This document shows positions 722 through 34,679 of a stretch of 36,433 nucleotides of DNA, piece after piece. The notes below the pieces were generated by a model. That model did not search any database. It was not told the origin of the DNA and was given only the letters and a program-made list of their open reading frames with translations. This stretch comes from a virus. The position numbers and the translations under genes were made by a program. Position 1 is the stretch's first letter, and every line of letters begins with the position of its first letter. The DNA is taken from the IMG/VR virus record IMGVR_UViG_3300046167_000148, positions 1-36,433 of that record; one strand, 5' to 3'.

Positions 722-736
722 ATTAGGAGAATATAA

Positions 737-1533
737 ATGCAAATAATACCCAGCGAAGAGCTGTCAAATAAGGCATACCACGAACTGCCTGCAATTTCAT
801 CAAGCGCTGTGAAGACAGTCGCAACGTCATCATTGTACCACTGGAAGAATGCTAAGTTTAATTCTACACCAGCTATGATCTTGGGATCTGCGTTTCATGC
901 GATGCTGTTAGAGCCAGAGAAAAACTTGGTAACTAACTCTGGGTTGCAACGTCGTGGCAGTAAGGCTTGGAAAGATCAGGAAAATTTTCTAGGTGACGAT
1001 GAGATCCTATTGCCAGAGGGCGAGTATGAACAGTGTCAGAAAATGGTTGATGGTTGCCTGCAAAACAAAATGGCTAGAAATTTATTAACCAATGAAGATC
1101 TGCTGGCTGAATATAGCTTTATAGCTGAATGCCCAAAAACAGGGCTTGAGCTAAAATGCCGCCCCGATGGGCTGTTAAAAGAGGCTGGCTATAGTAATAG
1201 ACCTAAAGTCGTGCTTAGACGCATCCTATCGTGGTTTTGATAAGGCTGTGAGGAATTTCCGCTATGATTTGCAAAGTTGCGTATACCGCTACATCTTAAA
1301 GCTATGTGGAATTGAAACTACAAATTTTATATTTATTGCTACTGAAAAAAGGCTCATACGCTACAGCCTGCTATGAAATGTCAGATAAATATAACAAGTA
1401 TGCCGAGGACGAAATGTTTAAGACATTGCGAAAAATCAAAGTGGCACAAGATACAAACACTTTTGATACAGGCTGGCCTGAGCTGGATACGATTAGTCTT
1501 CCAGCTTATCTTGATGAAGACCACGGCTTATAA
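737..1533 (+). CDS. PD-(D/E)XK exonuclease, YqaJ/RecE-like (two +1 frame breaks)
   Basis: The N-terminal part (YHELPAISSSAVKTVATSSL, then MILGSAFHAMLLEP) is typical of the phage exonuclease family related to RecE and Cas4. The catalytic core reads KCRPDG followed, after correction, by VIDLKS, giving the D...DxK triad. Two single extra bases break the frame: T at 1190 after GCT GGC, and one A in the six-A run ending at 1350. Correcting both joins three reading segments into one protein of about 264 residues ending at 1533. The SD is AGGAGAA at 725-731. It would process DNA ends for recombination together with the SSB encoded next. Confidence 0.75.
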
Positions 1534-1559: not shown

Positions 1560-1580
1560 ATATTTAAAAGGAGTTGTAAA

Positions 1581-2225
1581 ATGCAACACATAATATCTGG
1601 CGTGAAGGCGCTATATCCAAGACTAAATCAAACATACAGATTTGATCAGGAAGAATACAAATCTCAAAAGTGTGAACCCACTGCTGAGGGGGCGGCTTAC
1701 GAGATGTCGTTTAACCTTACAGGTGAGCAGTGCAAGGAGCTGAACACGATCTGTATGCAAGCATATAAAAATGCGGCGGCGTTAGAGACAAGTAAGCGCA
1801 AGTGGCCTGAGCAACCATTAAGTTTGCCATACAAGCGTGATGACGCAAAGCAGGGCGATTGGATTGGCAAGGCTAAACTAAAAGGCGCTTACTCTGGCGA
1901 GGCCACAAACCCACCACGTCAGGTCGATGCATCACGTAAAAAATTACCTGATGGATTTGAGCTGACATCAGGGTCAACTGTGAATATCGCAGTGACAGTC
2001 GTGCCATACAATACAGGCACAATTAATGGCGTGTCATTGAGATTACGAGCAGTGCAAGTGCTAGAGCTGGCTGAGAAGCAGGAGAGTGAAGATCCATTCA
2101 CTGAAGTTGCAGGCGGATACTCTGGCGGTGCGGCGCAAATTAATGGTGTAGAGCAAGATCCATTTGGATTGCCACCAGCACAACCAGCTCAGTCAAATGA
2201 TCTGGAAGACGAAATACCATTTTAA
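1581..2225 (+). CDS. single-stranded DNA-binding protein (DUF2815/gp2.5-like)
   Basis: The protein has 214 residues. The ATG at 1581 is chosen over an upstream in-frame one because an SD (AAAGGAG) precedes it at good spacing. The middle is an OB-fold-like beta region with conserved basic and aromatic residues and a GSTVNIAVTVVPYN strand. The C-terminus is disordered, Pro/Gln-rich, and ends DLEDEIPF, the acidic-hydrophobic tip by which SSBs recruit replication and repair partners. It sits between the exonuclease and primase-helicase genes, as in many phage recombination/replication cassettes. It would coat ssDNA in the cytoplasm and support strand exchange. Family assignment is from layout and tail, not alignment. 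Confidence 0.75.
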   Translation: MQHIISGVKALYPRLNQTYRFDQEEYKSQKCEPTAEGAAYEMSFNLTGEQCKELNTICMQAYKNAAALETSKRKWPEQPLSLPYKRDDAKQGDWIGKAKLKGAYSGEATNPPRQVDASRKKLPDGFELTSGSTVNIAVTVVPYNTGTINGVSLRLRAVQVLELAEKQESEDPFTEVAGGYSGGAAQINGVEQDPFGLPPAQPAQSNDLEDEIPF

Positions 2226-2582: not shown

Positions 2583-2598
2583 ATTAATAGGGGATAAA

Positions 2599-4489
2599 AT
2601 GCAAAACACGAAATACCCAAATGCAAACTGGGATCAGTATTCAAGTAAAATTATAAGTGCATTATCATTGAAAAAGACTGCCATTGGCGAATATCATGGG
2701 GCTTGCCCAGTATGCCAAGGTGTAGATCGTTTCTGGATCAGGGAAGATGCTCAGAACTGCGACGTGATGGTAGCTGTCAGTAAATGCTCATGACTTTGCT
2801 GGCATAAAGGACGCACTGAGAAACCAAGGATTGTGGCCTGATGAAAATGAGAAGCCAGTGACAAGAGAATACACAATTAGCTGGCCTGAGCCTGAGCCAG
2901 AGGCGTCGCATCCATACCTGATCAAGAAAAAGATCGGGCTTGGTAACGCTAAGATAGATGGTAACTTGCTGGTCATTCCTGTGATAAACTCTCAGGGCAA
3001 ACGTGTGGGCGTCCAGAATATTGATCCAGCAGGATCAAAGAAATTTTCTACTGGTATGCCAGTTGTCGGAAATTTTAGCGTTATTGGCGGAAAATTAGAC
3101 GATTTAATTTACGTTTGCGAGGGCTGGGCAACTGCAATGTCAGTGCATCTGGCTACAGGCAGGCCAACAGTATTCGCATTGTCTGCTGGTAATCTTACCT
3201 GCTGTGATAGGTGAGCTTTACGAGGCACGTCCAAATTTACGCATTGTGGTGGCTGGAGATAACGACGAGGCTGGCATGAAGGCCATTGAGAAGTGCGTTA
3301 ATGATCATAATGTGCAATCTGTTGTGCCTGACGTCGAAGGGCTGGGATTTCTCTGATATGTGGGTCAATCGTGGTAAAGAGGCTACGGCAAAGGCTCTGG
3401 AAATAAAGAGCCTGCTCGATCAGGTGTTCTTCCCTAATGATGCAGTCGCACAGCTCGATAGGAGCTACTTAGTGAAGGGCTGGTTTGGTCAGGGGCAGTT
3501 GTCGATGGTGTACGGCGCATCTAACGTAGGGTAAATCGTTTTTCGTGCAGGACATTGCGTGGCATGTATCTGCAAGCCAAGATTGGCACGGAAACAAAGT
3601 AAAGGGCGGCGTGGTGCTATTCTTGGCTCTGGAAGGCGGCACAACCACGCATAATCGTATTGTGGCGCTTAAACAGCAGTATCCAGAGCATAAAGACGTT
3701 AAGCTGGCTGTGAGGCCATTGCCACTCAATTTGCTGGATGGTGAAGTTGACGTGAATAAAATTTGTGATTTGTGTGACGAGATCAAAAGGCTGTATGGCG
3801 ACATTGCAATGATTGTTGTGGATACGTTATCTCGATCAATGCCTGCTGGCGATGAAAATTCTCCTGCAAGTGCAACTGCTGTGATTTCTGCTGTGGATAA
3901 GATTAGGGCTACAACGAGCGCACATCTCATGCTGGTGCATCACTCAGGTAAAAATCTGGAAGCAAAGGCGCGTGGTCACAGCTCATTACGTGCGGCTGTG
4001 GAAACTGAGATAGAGCTGAGTTATGACGAGGCGACAGGTCTGCGAACTGCTCTGGCTACCAAACAGAGAGATCTGGAAGGCGGCAGGAAGTTTCACTTTA
4101 AGCTGAAGGTGATTGAGCTGGGCAATGATATGGATGGCGATCCTGTCACGACTTGCGTGATTATTCCAGCTAGTGAGGGTGATGTCGATAAGGCTAACAA
4201 GAAAGCCATCAAGGGTAAGCAACAGATCCTATTTAAGACGTGCTTCCAACAGCTACGAGGCGAGGGTATTGGTAGGGCTAATCCATCAGGTTTAGGATAT
4301 CCTGAGCCAAGCACGTTCTGGATGATTGAGGAAGACGTCATAAAGAAGCATTTTTTAGGCAAAGTTTCTGGCGTATCTAATCCATCCAGCACATACAAGC
4401 AGGCAATAAATGGGCTGATATCTGGGGGTCATATTGTCCAAAATGAGGGCAATATTTGGTTCACTGATGATTTTGGTAAAATGAAGTAA
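2599..4489 (+). CDS. TOPRIM primase / RepA-like ATPase fusion (several +1 frame breaks)
   Basis: Joined from four reading segments, this is a primase-helicase of about 630 residues. A zinc-ribbon start (CPVCQG, then DRFWI) is followed by a TOPRIM domain with the catalytic Glu in YVCEGWATAMS and AGDNDEAG. Then comes a RecA/RepA-type ATPase with Walker A GASNVGKS (after correction), LFLALEGG, a Walker B-like MIVVDTLSRS and LMLVHHSGK sensor. A winged-helix-like tail follows (residues VIKKHFLG onward). Frame breaks lie near 2780 (at least one indel, obscuring the second Cys pair), at 3197 (A), 3342 (C) and 3532 (T, which creates TAA inside Walker A). Each is a net +1. The start has a weak SD (AGGGGAT). 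It would prime and unwind phage DNA. Confidence 0.8.
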
Positions 4490-4667: not shown

Positions 4668-4679
4668 ATGGAGCATAAG

Positions 4680-5033
4680 ATGAAGAAAGAGATTAACATT
4701 AGAACGGCTGGTAGCAAGCGAGGGACGAGCGAGGGCGAGGGGGATCAAGCAATGGAAGAACAAAGTATGGTGAGGTCGGACATACTGTCGAAGGCAAACA
4801 TTCTCATAACAGGGGATCGTGCTAGGCAGTACGGAAGCGCAGAGGAGAACTTCAATTGTATTGCGACTATGTGGACGGCGTATCTCGGTAGGCATGTGTC
4901 GGCATACGACGTGGCAAATATGATGGCGCTGTTAAAGATTGCTAGGATGCGTAACGGCGTGCATCAGGATAGCTCTGTCGATGGGTGCGGTTATCTTGCG
5001 CTGGCTTACGAGCTATCAAATGAGGTCACATAG
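4680..5033 (+). CDS. DUF6378 domain protein
   Basis: The C-terminal 85 residues read ILSKANILITGDRARQYG, then NFNCIATMWTAYLG, DVANMMALLKIAR and DSSVDGCGYLALAYEL. This is the full pattern of DUF6378, a small helical phage domain often found near nucleotide-metabolism or replication genes. The N-terminal 35 residues are charged and low in complexity. ATG 4668 is also in frame, four codons upstream. Neither start has a strong SD (GGGG at about 4656), so the start is uncertain. Function is unknown. The all-alpha, MazG-like look suggests nucleotide binding, but this is conjecture. Confidence 0.75.
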   Translation: MKKEINIRTAGSKRGTSEGEGDQAMEEQSMVRSDILSKANILITGDRARQYGSAEENFNCIATMWTAYLGRHVSAYDVANMMALLKIARMRNGVHQDSSVDGCGYLALAYELSNEVT

Positions 5034-5045
5034 GCTTGAAACAAC

Positions 5046-5059
5046 GCCTCTCTTGAGGC
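5046..5059. promoter_or_regulatory. small tetraloop hairpin
   Basis: GCCTC, a TCTT loop and GAGGC form a compact hairpin just after the DUF6378 gene. It lies between a possible -35 (TTGAAA, 5036-5041) and a possible -10 (TACTAT, 5061-5066; 19-nt spacing). It could be a terminator for a minus-strand RNA, since GTTGTTTC follows it on that strand, or an operator. Confidence 0.35.
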
Positions 5060-5067
5060 ATACTATA

Positions 5068-5175
5068 GTCAGTGGGTTCTCCTCCCTCTAAACGTGTTGT
5101 TTTTGCATTTACAACATGTTTCCCACTGAACTAGACCGCGTAGCTTCTCCTCCTCTTCCGAGCTACGCGGTCACA
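5068..5175 (+). ncRNA. structured RNA with two anti-Shine-Dalgarno loops
   Basis: Two stem-loops fill this spacer. The first pairs TCAGTGGG (5069-5076) with CCCACTGA (5122-5129), with an inner stem 5091-5100/5111-5120. Its unpaired 5' side (5077-5090) reads TTCTCCTCCCTC. The second is a perfect 12-bp stem (5134-5145/5161-5172) whose 15-nt loop reads TCTCCTCCTCTTCCG. Both present TTCTCCTCC, complementary to Shine-Dalgarno sequences. TACTAT (5061-5066) could be the -10 of its promoter. Alphaproteobacteria carry small RNAs with CCUCCUCCC-type hairpin loops (CcsR/cuckoo RNAs), which this recalls. Transcription on the minus strand, giving GGA-rich loops like a CsrA sponge, cannot be excluded. Confidence 0.55.
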
Positions 5176-5192
5176 TTACAAGGTTAGATGAC

Positions 5193-5396
5193 GTGTCAGA
5201 GTTTAACATTAAATTAACGCTAGATCTTCACTGTAAGAATACTGACGAGAATGATCATGAGCTGGATATACTGTGTGACTTCATAACAGATCGATTGCAT
5301 ATCGTTGGAGCTGACGTTGTTATCCAATCGCTGGCAGAGGCACTCATTGAATTACACGATCAGAATGCAGAGGATAAGGCGAGGCAGTTGCACTAA
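5193..5396 (+). CDS. small protein of unknown function
   Basis: This 67-residue acidic protein starts with GTG. It is predicted as two strands (FNIKLTLDLHC) followed by helices (HELDILCDFITDRLHIVGADVVIQSLAEALIELHD). No SD stronger than AAGGTTAG precedes it, and its start lies about 20 nt after the anti-SD RNA element. Its stop overlaps the ATG of the next small frame as TAATG (5394-5398). I do not recognise the family. Confidence 0.55.
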   Translation: MSEFNIKLTLDLHCKNTDENDHELDILCDFITDRLHIVGADVVIQSLAEALIELHDQNAEDKARQLH

Positions 5397-5782: not shown

Positions 5783-6283
5783 ATGGCTGGCAAGGCATTA
5801 CGAAGGAAGATCCTCGCAGATGTTGAGAAGAAAGGCGGCGTAGATTACTTGTTTGAGCAAATCGCATCAGGTAATACTTTGACGAAAATGGCTGTAGAAT
5901 ATGGCTGTTCCAGACAATATCTTGGCTCATCACTGAATAAAGTGCCAGAATATGAGAAGGCCATGAACGAAGCCAGACGCCACGCCGCAGATGCCCTAGT
6001 CGAGCAAGGCTTAACAATGGTAGATGATTTGGATGGCGGCTCGACAAGCAGTGAGATAGCCGCAACGAGAGAGAAGGTGCAATGGCGTAAATTTATGGCA
6101 AGCTCGTATAACCAAGATAGATATGGAACGAGGCCACAGACAAACGTAAATATCTCAGTTGGCGACATGCATTTAGACGCCTTACGCAAAGTTAATTCTG
6201 ACTTGGCGGCTATCCATAAGGAAGATCAGGAGCGCGAAGCCAAGACGATTGACGTGGATTATGAGGATGTAACCGATGAGTGA
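5783..6283 (+). CDS. terS: terminase small subunit
   Basis: The protein has 166 residues. An N-terminal helix-turn-helix (GNTLTKMAVEYGCSRQYLGSSL, about residues 30-52) resembles the DNA-binding region of phage small terminases. A central helical segment (EARRHAADALVEQGLTMVDDL, then EIAATREKVQWRKFMASSYNQDRYG) would form the oligomerisation core. The tail is acidic. A clear SD (TGGAGAAT, 5771-5778) fixes the start, and the stop overlaps the terL start by 8 nt. It would recognise the packaging site on phage DNA, probably in the C-run spacer just upstream, and load the large subunit. Confidence 0.85.
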   Translation: MAGKALRRKILADVEKKGGVDYLFEQIASGNTLTKMAVEYGCSRQYLGSSLNKVPEYEKAMNEARRHAADALVEQGLTMVDDLDGGSTSSEIAATREKVQWRKFMASSYNQDRYGTRPQTNVNISVGDMHLDALRKVNSDLAAIHKEDQEREAKTIDVDYEDVTDE

Positions 6284-7676
6284 TAACCCGTTAACAGAAT
6301 TTGTCCTGCGTTATCGTGACGATCCAGTGCTATTTGTTAAAGAGGTGCTGGGCGCTACGCCATATAATTATCAGGAAGAGTTTCTCGATGCTATAGCTAA
6401 TGGCGAGCGTAAGATGTCTGTCAGGTCTGGGCATGGTACAGGGAAATCAACGTCGGCATCTTGGGCAATGCTTTGGTACTTGCTCCTGCGTTTCCCAAAT
6501 AAGGTTGTAGTCACAGCGCCCACGTCCAGCCAATTGTTTGACGCATTGTTTGCCGAGCTAAAACGATGGATTAACGAGTTGCCACCCCATCTACAGCAAT
6601 TGCTAACTGTTAAGTCAGATCGTGTAGAACTAACGTCAGCCGCTTCCGAGGCATTTATATCAGCCAGAACGTCACGCGCAGAAACGCCAGAGGCATTAGC
6701 TGGTGTGCATTCCGAAAATGTTTTATTGGTAGTTGATGAGGCATCTGGTGTGCCTGAGAAAGTTTTTGAAGCGGCGGCTGGGTCAATGTCTGGTCACAGC
6801 GCAACCACGCTATTGCTAGTCAAACCCGACGAGATCCTCTGGCACATTTTACGAAAGCCAAACCAGAATGTCCAAGAGCTGGTGGACGAGGCGCTGGTCG
6901 TGCGTCGATAGCCCACTTGTGTCTGACTGAGTTTGTCGAGGAAATGCGTGAGCGATACGGCGAGGAAAGCAATGCATTCCGAATACGTGTACTTGGCGAA
7001 TTTCCTATGGCTGATGACGATACGATCATACCATTTCACCTAGCCCAGAGCGCGACGCATCGTGATATTGAGATGACGCCAGATATAAAACCAGTGTGGG
7101 GCTTGGACGTGGCGAGGTTTGGTACTGATAAAACTGCGCTTTGCAAAAGATATGGCAACGTCGTCACAGATATTGAGGCGTGGCAGGGATTAGACTTAAT
7201 GCAAACTGTGGGTCGAGTTATGGCGGAATATGAGGGATTACAGCCCAGCATGAGGCCATCAGACATACTGGTCGATAGTATTGGCGTTGGCGGCGGTGTA
7301 GTCGATAGATTGCGTGAGCTTGGCCTGCCAGTGCGTGGAGTTAATGTTGGTGAAGCACCAGCGCTTGGCAAGACCTACATGAATTTACGAAGTGAGCTGT
7401 GGTTTAAGACAAAAGGCTGGCTCGAAGATAGATCCTGCAAACTGCCAAAGGATGACCAGCTCTTGGCTGAGTTAACCAGCATTAGGTACAGCTTTACATC
7501 GTCAGGGCAAAATGAAAGCCGAGAGCAAGGACGCAATGCGAAAACGTGGCCTAAAATCGCCAGACCTTGCAGATGCACTATGCCTGACAATGGCATCGGA
7601 CGCGACGACTGCATTATCTGGCAATAATAATAACTGGAATAAATCCATTAAGCGCAATTTAAAGGGAATTGCATGA
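6276..7676 (+). CDS. terL: terminase large subunit (three +1 frame breaks)
   Basis: The ATPase half has an adenine-binding start (YNYQEEFLDAI), Walker A GHGTGKST, PTSSQ and Walker B LLVVDEAS. The nuclease half has GLDVARFGTDKTAL, VDSIGVGGGVVDRL and, after correction, SPDLADALCL, giving the three RNase H-like acidic residues. Extra bases near 6819-6822, at 6928 (T, creating TGA) and at 7508 (C after GGG) split it into pieces. Skipping one base at each gives about 466 residues ending at TGA 7674-7676, which overlaps the next gene's ATG as ATGA. That overlap supports the corrected frame. It translocates DNA into the prohead and cuts concatemers. As written, no full-length protein is made. Confidence 0.88.
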
Positions 7677-32833: not shown

Positions 32834-33027
32834 TGCTTGGGCGACTTGTTCTTTCGTCGCATAAGCGAAAGCTGGTGTTCGAGGTTGTTCAATATTGCAA
32901 GTTGCTCCTGCATCATCCAGATGTAGAAGCTCCTCGTCCGAACTTCCTTGCCCTTCAGATCTTCCTGCACATTTTCGTTGAGCTTGATTGCCCTCGTCAC
33001 GGCTTGGTAACAATCTTTGGTTTTCAT
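32830..33027 (-). CDS. small helical protein
   Basis: The protein has 65 residues. MKTKDCYQAVTRAIKLNENV, followed by QEDLKGKEVRTRSFYIWMMQEQLAILNNLEHQLSLMRR. A strong SD (GAGGAGAA with 6-nt spacing) fixes the start at 33027, in preference to the longer overlapping frame. No family recognised. Confidence 0.6.
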   Translation of the reverse strand: MKTKDCYQAVTRAIKLNENVQEDLKGKEVRTRSFYIWMMQEQLAILNNLEHQLSLMRRKNKSPKQ

Positions 33028-34295: not shown

Positions 34296-34558
34296 CTCCC
34301 TAGCTCCTTTGCAGTAACTGTTTTCATAAAGGTGTCTTGCTTACTGAAGATATGAATAGGCTTCTTTGTGTACTTGCAGAAATCTTCAGCTTGCTTGAGT
34401 GCATCAGCCTTATGTTTATAAAACCTCTCCCAATCCCAAGGCCAATAGTTATCGACACCTAGCTCATCGACTTCGCCTACTTTCCAAAGTCCCTTATTAT
34501 TCCAGACAACTAATGCGTTAGTCATCCAGTGATCTTCTCTTTTATCACCTGTCTGCAT
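34292..34558 (-). CDS. small protein of unknown function
   Basis: The protein has 88 residues and is Trp-rich (WMTNALVVWNNKGLWKVGEVDELGVDNYWPWDWERFY), followed by KHKADALKQAEDFCKYTKKPIHIF, an alpha/beta ending like the compact DUF2188-type fold (strand, helix with AxxxAxxF, strand). SD TAGGAGAA fixes the start. Coupled to the alpha-CTD-like gene (ATGA). No activity known. Confidence 0.5.
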   Translation of the reverse strand: MQTGDKREDHWMTNALVVWNNKGLWKVGEVDELGVDNYWPWDWERFYKHKADALKQAEDFCKYTKKPIHIFSKQDTFMKTVTAKELGR

Positions 34559-34559
34559 T

Positions 34560-34679
34560 TTATTCTCCTAAGTTAATGTTAATAAATTGATCCAGAAAAA
34601 CTATAATCTCTGGAAGGTGAATGCAGGCTAGGGCAAATAATGCCATAGCCACTCCATCTTTGATCATTGTGATGTTCAT
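34560..34679 (-). CDS. 39-residue membrane peptide
   Basis: The frame starts MNITMIKDGVAMALFALACI and continues HLPEIIVFLDQFININLGE. One hydrophobic helix of about 20 residues is clear. Its ATG overlaps the previous stop as ATGA (34676-34679), and its end contains the SD for the next gene. These are strong marks of a real coupled gene. Confidence 0.6.
   Translation of the reverse strand: MNITMIKDGVAMALFALACIHLPEIIVFLDQFININLGE

Follow-up and report, generated by a model that had tools for sequence, protein, structure and literature searches.

A conserved two-hairpin phage RNA as a candidate antisense regulator of early replication genes

The plus-strand segment 5071-5172 of IMG/VR virus record IMGVR_UViG_3300046167_000148, which was analysed over its full 36,433 bp and is referred to as the window, probably encodes an antisense RNA that acts in trans to repress early (replication) genes of the phage itself. 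As seen from the sequence, the RNA has a conserved structure on a defined strand, and its conserved loops find their matches with a bias towards early gene starts.

Genomic setting and architecture of the RNA

A portal gene of the SU10 type and a small terminase gene (terS, at 5783) are present in the window, whose relatives come from IMG/VR contigs. Among isolated phages, the portal has its best match in Octadecabacter virus 2, and the primase in Roseobacter phages CRP; given also that a Rhodobacteraceae metagenome bin (G001) includes a contig from this phage group, a Rhodobacterales bacterium is the most likely host. A DUF6378 gene (4668-5033) precedes the RNA locus and a 67-aa conserved ORF (5193-5396, plus strand) follows it; the genes for resolvase, exonuclease, SSB and primase/helicase lie upstream of the locus, and terS lies downstream. 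The 67-aa ORF is found 3' of the RNA in all clades (also at L174:6776-6979 and L199:5495-5692), starting with GTG, TTG or ATG; it shares 61-64% identity between subgroups of the window's clade (clade A) and has no match in Pfam or PHROG. The gap between the RNA and terS varies among relatives from about 0.6 to 1.3 kb, and is larger in the L174 subgroup because a 198-aa ORF reading like an HNH endonuclease (L174:7394-7990) sits between the 67-aa ORF and terS. In the window, ATGACCCCCCC(C) occurs twice in the segment 5653-5730 between these two genes, with C- and G-rich stretches behind the copies.

Several genes of the window appear to be split. The exonuclease (737-1530) and the primase/helicase (2599-4489) are distributed over several frames, with matches to intact homologues jumping between frames; these breaks resemble uncorrected indels of a long-read assembly, and relatives have intact copies. 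The large terminase region (6276-7627) also looks split. In addition, the 61.9-kb contig IMGVR_UViG_3300025570_000015 (loci L153 and L172) carries at least two different versions of the terS/RNA region, which suggests a chimeric or concatenated assembly.

The region 5060-5180 of the plus strand folds with -47.9 kcal/mol, compared to -19.3 kcal/mol in shuffled sequences (z = -8.6; 0/200 shuffles as good); the minus strand also folds (z = -5.3). Hairpin 1 is composed of an outer stem P1a with the arms AGUGGG (5071-5076) and CCCACU (5122-5127), an anti-Shine-Dalgarno bulge UUCUCCUCC (5077-5085), an inner stem P1b (5090-5100 / 5111-5121) and a 10-nt apical loop UUUUGCAUUU (5101-5110). Hairpin 2 (5134-5172) has a perfect 12-bp stem (5134-5145 / 5161-5172) and a CU-rich loop with a second UUCUCCUCC (5145-5153). 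The two stable hairpins, one of them with a perfect 12-bp stem, that a preliminary description of this DNA had noticed are thus confirmed. It had also placed a shared motif in both loops; both copies of TTCTCCTCC (5077-5085 and 5145-5153) are indeed present, but that of hairpin 1 forms a one-sided internal bulge rather than an apical loop. Two features had been overlooked, namely the complementarity of the apical loop to early-gene starts and the place of the RNA between the early and late modules. The heptamer CTCCTCC alone occurs at chance frequency (2 observed versus 1.9 expected); it is the structure and its conservation, rather than this motif, that exceed chance.

A promoter-like pair precedes the RNA, with the putative -35 element TTGAAA (5036-5041) 3 nt past the stop codon of the upstream gene and the putative -10 element CATACT (5059-5064; CATA[C/G/A]T in the family). 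TTGA is invariant in 39 aligned relatives, always 17 nt ahead of the -10 element (TTGA..-N17-CATA[C/G/A]T). The start implied by this pair is A5071, which is also the first base of the always-formed pairing. The RNA may therefore be a discrete transcript from its own promoter, with A5071 as predicted 5' end and a 3' end at or beyond 5172. An imperfect palindrome GCCTCTCTTGAGGC (5046-5059) within the promoter-like spacer varies between members, and may represent an operator or an additional short hairpin; as a third hairpin of the RNA it was rejected, since some members do not preserve the pairing and the palindrome sits inside the spacer.

Conservation, strand and extent of the family

Loci collected via terS and via a pattern combining the bulge and the apical loop yielded 28 distinct RNA sequences of clade A. 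These are close relatives, mostly metagenomic, and the following counts are not independent: across the 28 sequences, the 30 pairs of the structure defined in the window are formed in 96.1% of cells, 15 of the 30 pairs are altered on both sides, and 104 cells are compensatory, compared to 33 in shuffles. The covariation score was reached by 0/500 shuffles, and pairing falls to 24-36% once the partner is slid by one base. From A5071 inwards, P1a is paired in 100% of the sequences, its 3' arm being supported by covariation, whereas its outward extension is less consistent, with pairs outside A5071 failing in up to half of the sequences. P1b shows changes on both sides in 5/8 counted pairs, and the stem of hairpin 2 (helix 3) is paired in 100% of cells with 7/11 pairs compensatory. 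The apical loop UUUUGCAUUU stays fixed in all clade A sequences (28/28) while the stem around it covaries; GGGUUCUCCUCC in the bulge is nearly invariant, and the loop of hairpin 2 is variable but keeps UCCU(C/U). The pattern that the preliminary description had proposed looking for, stems changing by compensation around fixed loop motifs, is therefore found in the 28 relatives. Among wobble-type cells, GU/UG outnumber AC/CA by 51 to 11, and the selected molecule is therefore the plus-strand RNA.

A covariance model built from the alignment, which includes the window sequence itself, matches the window RNA over its full length with 145.8 bits. The model provides a search tool for a family that has no Rfam match at Rfam thresholds: at gathering thresholds, Rfam gave no match anywhere in the window, and blastn of the RNA region against isolated phages gave none either. 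A search of 296 host-family genomes returned no copy except the phage contig in G001, and no convincing copy was found in Octadecabacter virus 2 or in Roseobacter phages CRP-831, -811 and -406. A scan with the 67-aa ORF revealed a sister clade C (L461-L464, later L470-L472), which is recognized by the model with 38-41 bits (E < 1e-6) and keeps GCGGGUUCUCCUCCUCCC with a different apical loop. The L187 contig also carries a clade C copy; L186 and L188 share the exonuclease start of L187 and were treated as clade C type. In a further group D (L199, L465-L469), the interval from the DUF6378 gene to the 67-aa ORF holds two hairpins, whose loops include ACCCUCCC and UCUUCCUCCC. As L199 scores only 12.3 bits, their homology rests on position and layout; their CCUCCC-type loops are closer to the CcsR motif than those of the window, and they are possibly diverged homologues.

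Pattern searches contributed to a varying degree. The bulge-plus-apical-loop pattern found family members, about half of its distinct sequences being unrelated coding DNA; an apical-hairpin pattern found no further member. A double-motif scan of viral contigs gave mostly chance matches, and the long contigs L473 and L474, which have the bulge motif, were rejected as chance matches.

Complementarity of the loops to early gene starts

Gene families were grouped over 13 loci, with starts taken from a simple rule of Shine-Dalgarno sequence plus ORF, and 'late' refers only to genes downstream of terS. The bulge UUCUCCUCC fits early ribosome-binding sites better than late ones (mean -9.8 versus -7.4 kcal/mol, p = 7e-4), whereas a 16S tail does not differ significantly between the two classes (p = 0.11). 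An equally large early-late difference was given by only 2/300 shuffled bulges. AGGAGA or GGAGAA sites are present in 7/17 early but 3/37 late families (p = 0.007), although terS itself has a GGAGAA site, which counts against the early-gene reading. The Shine-Dalgarno matches quoted in the preliminary description are real, with AGGAGAA at 51, 725 and 2281, and GAGGAGAA ahead of the minus-strand gene starting at 33027. That description had further suggested that the RNA might sequester ribosomes, which does not follow: the loops imitate the 16S tail, and would thus bind mRNA, not ribosomes.

The exonuclease, SSB and primase genes carry AAAUGCAR at their start codons, as in AAAUGCAAAA, and the apical loop UUUUGCAUUU is complementary to it. 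On the plus strand of the window AAATGCAA occurs seven times, four of them at or just inside early starts (exonuclease at 735, SSB at 1579, primase at 2597 and 2619). The predicted target at the exonuclease start, AGGAGAA UAU AAAUGCAAAU (725-745, plus strand), is complementary to both elements, its site AGGAGAAUAUAAAUGCAAAU fitting the bulge as well as the apical loop; the same holds for the minus-strand gene starting at 34558, with the predicted target UAGGAGAAUAAAAUGCAG (34553-34570). Complementarity to the apical loop also predicts targets at the SSB start AAAGGAGUUGUAAAAUGCAAC (1569-1587, plus strand, AUG at 1581) and at the primase/helicase start AUAGGGGAUAAAAUGCAAAA (2588-2607, plus strand), the latter with a second site AAAUGCAA at 2619-2626.

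Across families, starts of the AUGCA[A/G] type are found in 5/17 early and 0/37 late families. The early count has a binomial P of 2e-4 at a Gln frequency of 3.4%, or 1.8e-3 without SSB, and 0/300 shuffled apical loops fitted five early families. The mean apical-loop energy of all early versus all late genes shows no significant difference (p = 0.14), and the signal is confined to this subset of five early families.

The same start matches are found in the clade A relatives examined, which additionally have them at other genes, including a Mom-family gene and a homologue of the PAPS-reductase type. AAAUGCAR is found at the exonuclease start of two subclades, although one of the two starts lies 18 codons earlier. 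All primase starts have the sequence AAAUGCAAAA, the second codon being CAA and never CAG in a search that allowed either. In clade C, where the apical loop is changed, the exonuclease starts with AUGACU and the primase with AUGAUA, and the PAPS-like gene is without an AUGCAR start. Similarly, in CRP-831, -811 and -406, in which no RNA was found, AUGCAR starts are absent from the exonuclease, the primase and, where seen, the PAPS-like gene. SSB is not informative as a target, because its AUGCAA start (AUGCAACAU in most of these phages) encodes the same MQ beginning with or without this apical loop.

Two further early-region observations concern individual relatives. The Mom-family DNA modification gene lies at L135:708-1349 and starts with AAAAATGCAAAA. 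At L131, about 1291 nt upstream of terS, there is a tiny conserved ORF (MQPTNYLLISIS..., 30-35 aa), whose start is AAAATGCAA in many clade A phages.

Proposed mode of action and its alternatives

Antisense RNAs that cover the Shine-Dalgarno sequence or the start codon block initiation, as established for many small RNAs. Such a block has been described for the ar14 RNAs (PMC3927594, PMC10746234). In the phage RNA, the bulge UUCUCCUCC would have Shine-Dalgarno sequences of the AGGAGAA type as its partners, the apical loop UUUUGCAUUU would pair with start codons in an AAAUGCAR context, and hairpin 2 would offer a second CU-rich loop. If the inner stem opens, the order around the outer stem, 5'-antiSD...antiAUG-3', would match the 5'-SD-AUG-3' order of the mRNA in a three-way junction, so that one RNA could cover both parts of a start site and exclude the ribosome. 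By geometric reasoning rather than computation, the stem would be the point at which the Shine-Dalgarno sequence, with its 3' end, and the AUG, with its 5' side, come together. With the inner stem closed, the two contacts would be separate, and simultaneous pairing of both elements might be strained. Since the RNA is placed between the early genes and the terminase genes and has a promoter-like sequence of its own, it would, once transcribed, be expected to pair with early mRNAs in the cell, repress them and thereby damp early translation as the phage turns towards packaging. Taken further, and only tentatively, a single hairpin may recognize, through a three-way junction, the Shine-Dalgarno sequence together with the first two codons; unrelated replication genes may have converged on AUGCAR for joint control, and the RNA may serve as an early-to-late switch.

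The 67-aa ORF starts about 20 nt past hairpin 2 behind all 132 RNA copies inspected, and might thus be the gene that the RNA serves. No T-run follows hairpin 2 in the window's own subclade, and therefore the RNA may be a 5' leader of this ORF. As such it could act in cis on the ORF and the late genes, as a stabiliser, a protein-binding site or a regulatory leader, with CU-rich loops that are not antisense. In clade C (GCUUUUU) and in L090, an outlying member of clade A (GUCUUUU), however, a terminator-like T-run separates hairpin 2 from the ORF. Pairing of the bulge with the ORF's own Shine-Dalgarno sequence was rejected, as the latter differs between groups (AAGG or GGAG) whereas the bulge is constant. 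Moreover, a leader leaves the start-codon and Shine-Dalgarno matches to early genes elsewhere in the genome unexplained, and we consider it unlikely.

A trans-acting RNA might also be directed mainly at host mRNAs, as a phage imitation of host CcsR/cuckoo RNAs with only secondary matches in the phage. CcsR-like RNAs, often in tandem arrays, are found in 31/41 sampled genomes of the likely host family (three above the Rfam cut-off), and the whole ar14 / NfeR1 model (RF02344) is weakly matched by all three clades, with 22.3, 21.7 and 19.1 bits in clades A, C and D versus a gathering threshold of 58.8. Nevertheless, the Shine-Dalgarno bias separates the phage's own early genes from its late genes, and the apical loop, without a counterpart in described CcsR/ar14 RNAs, fits phage start codons. 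Host mRNAs are thus rather improbable as main targets, though conceivable as an added role.

The position upstream of terS and adjoining the replication genes would also suit hairpins that act in DNA or in packaging, such as an origin, a single-strand initiation site, a pac site or a pRNA-like packaging RNA by terS, and stem covariation alone cannot tell RNA from single-stranded DNA. The excess of G-U over A-C pairs points instead to RNA of one strand, the distance to terS is variable, and the identity of the loop tracks the start codons, which leaves such functions very little probability. The least probable reading, a CsrA-sponge RNA with GGA loops on the other strand as raised in the preliminary description, is rejected: both hairpins of the reverse complement contain GGAGGAGAA, and this strand folds as well, but the wobble pairs are broken on it, and CsrA was found in 0/41 genomes of the likely host family, whereas it was detected in the control genomes E. 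coli, B. subtilis and T. maritima.

Comparison with known RNAs

The preliminary description had likened the element to the CcsR/cuckoo RNAs, and this resemblance is real but weak; its reading as a conserved plus-strand RNA of the phage that displays anti-Shine-Dalgarno sequences is supported. The CcsR1 model (RF02791) gives 22.5 bits versus a gathering threshold of 65.3 (E = 0.0013 in a 211-base search) and covers hairpin 2 only. Similar to CcsR1-4 of Rhodobacter, the phage RNA occurs in an alphaproteobacterial context and exposes CU-rich anti-Shine-Dalgarno loops on strong hairpins; its stems vary around a loop that is kept, and it is associated with a short gene, which in the case of CcsR is ccaF1 of 71 aa (PMC10253847). 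It differs in that one motif lies in an internal bulge, in its extra start-codon loop and in being phage-encoded. The exact CCUCCUCCC loop of CcsR1 is absent, the loops being UUCUCCUCCCUCU and UUCUCCUCCUCUUCC in the window and UUUCCUCAC and AUCUCCUCUUCC in other members. Co-transcription with DUF1127, a trait of CcsR1, was not seen at this locus, where the neighbours are the DUF6378 gene and the ORF without a Pfam or PHROG match.

The phage RNA is also similar to ar14 / NfeR1, being predicted to act in trans through repeated anti-Shine-Dalgarno hairpins, which in ar14 / NfeR1 block ribosome-binding sites (PMC10746234, PMC3927594). The layout of the ar14 promoter, CTTAGAC-N17-CTATAT (PMC10746234), resembles that of the promoter-like pair. 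However, ar14 has three hairpins with identical CCUCCUCCC, compared to two conserved hairpins with variable loops in the phage RNA. The best reading is that the phage RNA would work like the CcsR/ar14 RNAs but falls outside these families by score, motif, hairpin number and neighbouring gene.

The phage regulatory RNAs described so far mostly have a single phage gene as their target, in cis, or else host mRNAs. Like lambda OOP, P22 sar, VP882 VpdS and lambda PreS, the RNA described here would be a phage-encoded RNA that steers phage development. According to part of a review on phage-derived sRNAs (PMC12197685), sar keeps translation of a phage gene from being initiated, OOP and sar each act as cis-antisense RNAs on one phage mRNA, and PreS is described as targeting host dnaN; the RNAs covered there are cis-antisense or host-targeting, and none uses Shine-Dalgarno together with start-codon loops against several phage genes. 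Unlike OOP, sar and PreS, the present RNA is predicted to be a single trans-acting molecule for several phage replication genes via these two kinds of loops. If this holds, one RNA controls a set of the phage's own replication genes, whose start codons seem adapted to it, including a gene whose start has moved by 18 codons. Early-gene shut-off would then become testable at the RNA level in phages of the abundant marine Rhodobacterales, and the anti-Shine-Dalgarno loop design would have found a second, independent use in bacteria that carry CcsR RNAs.
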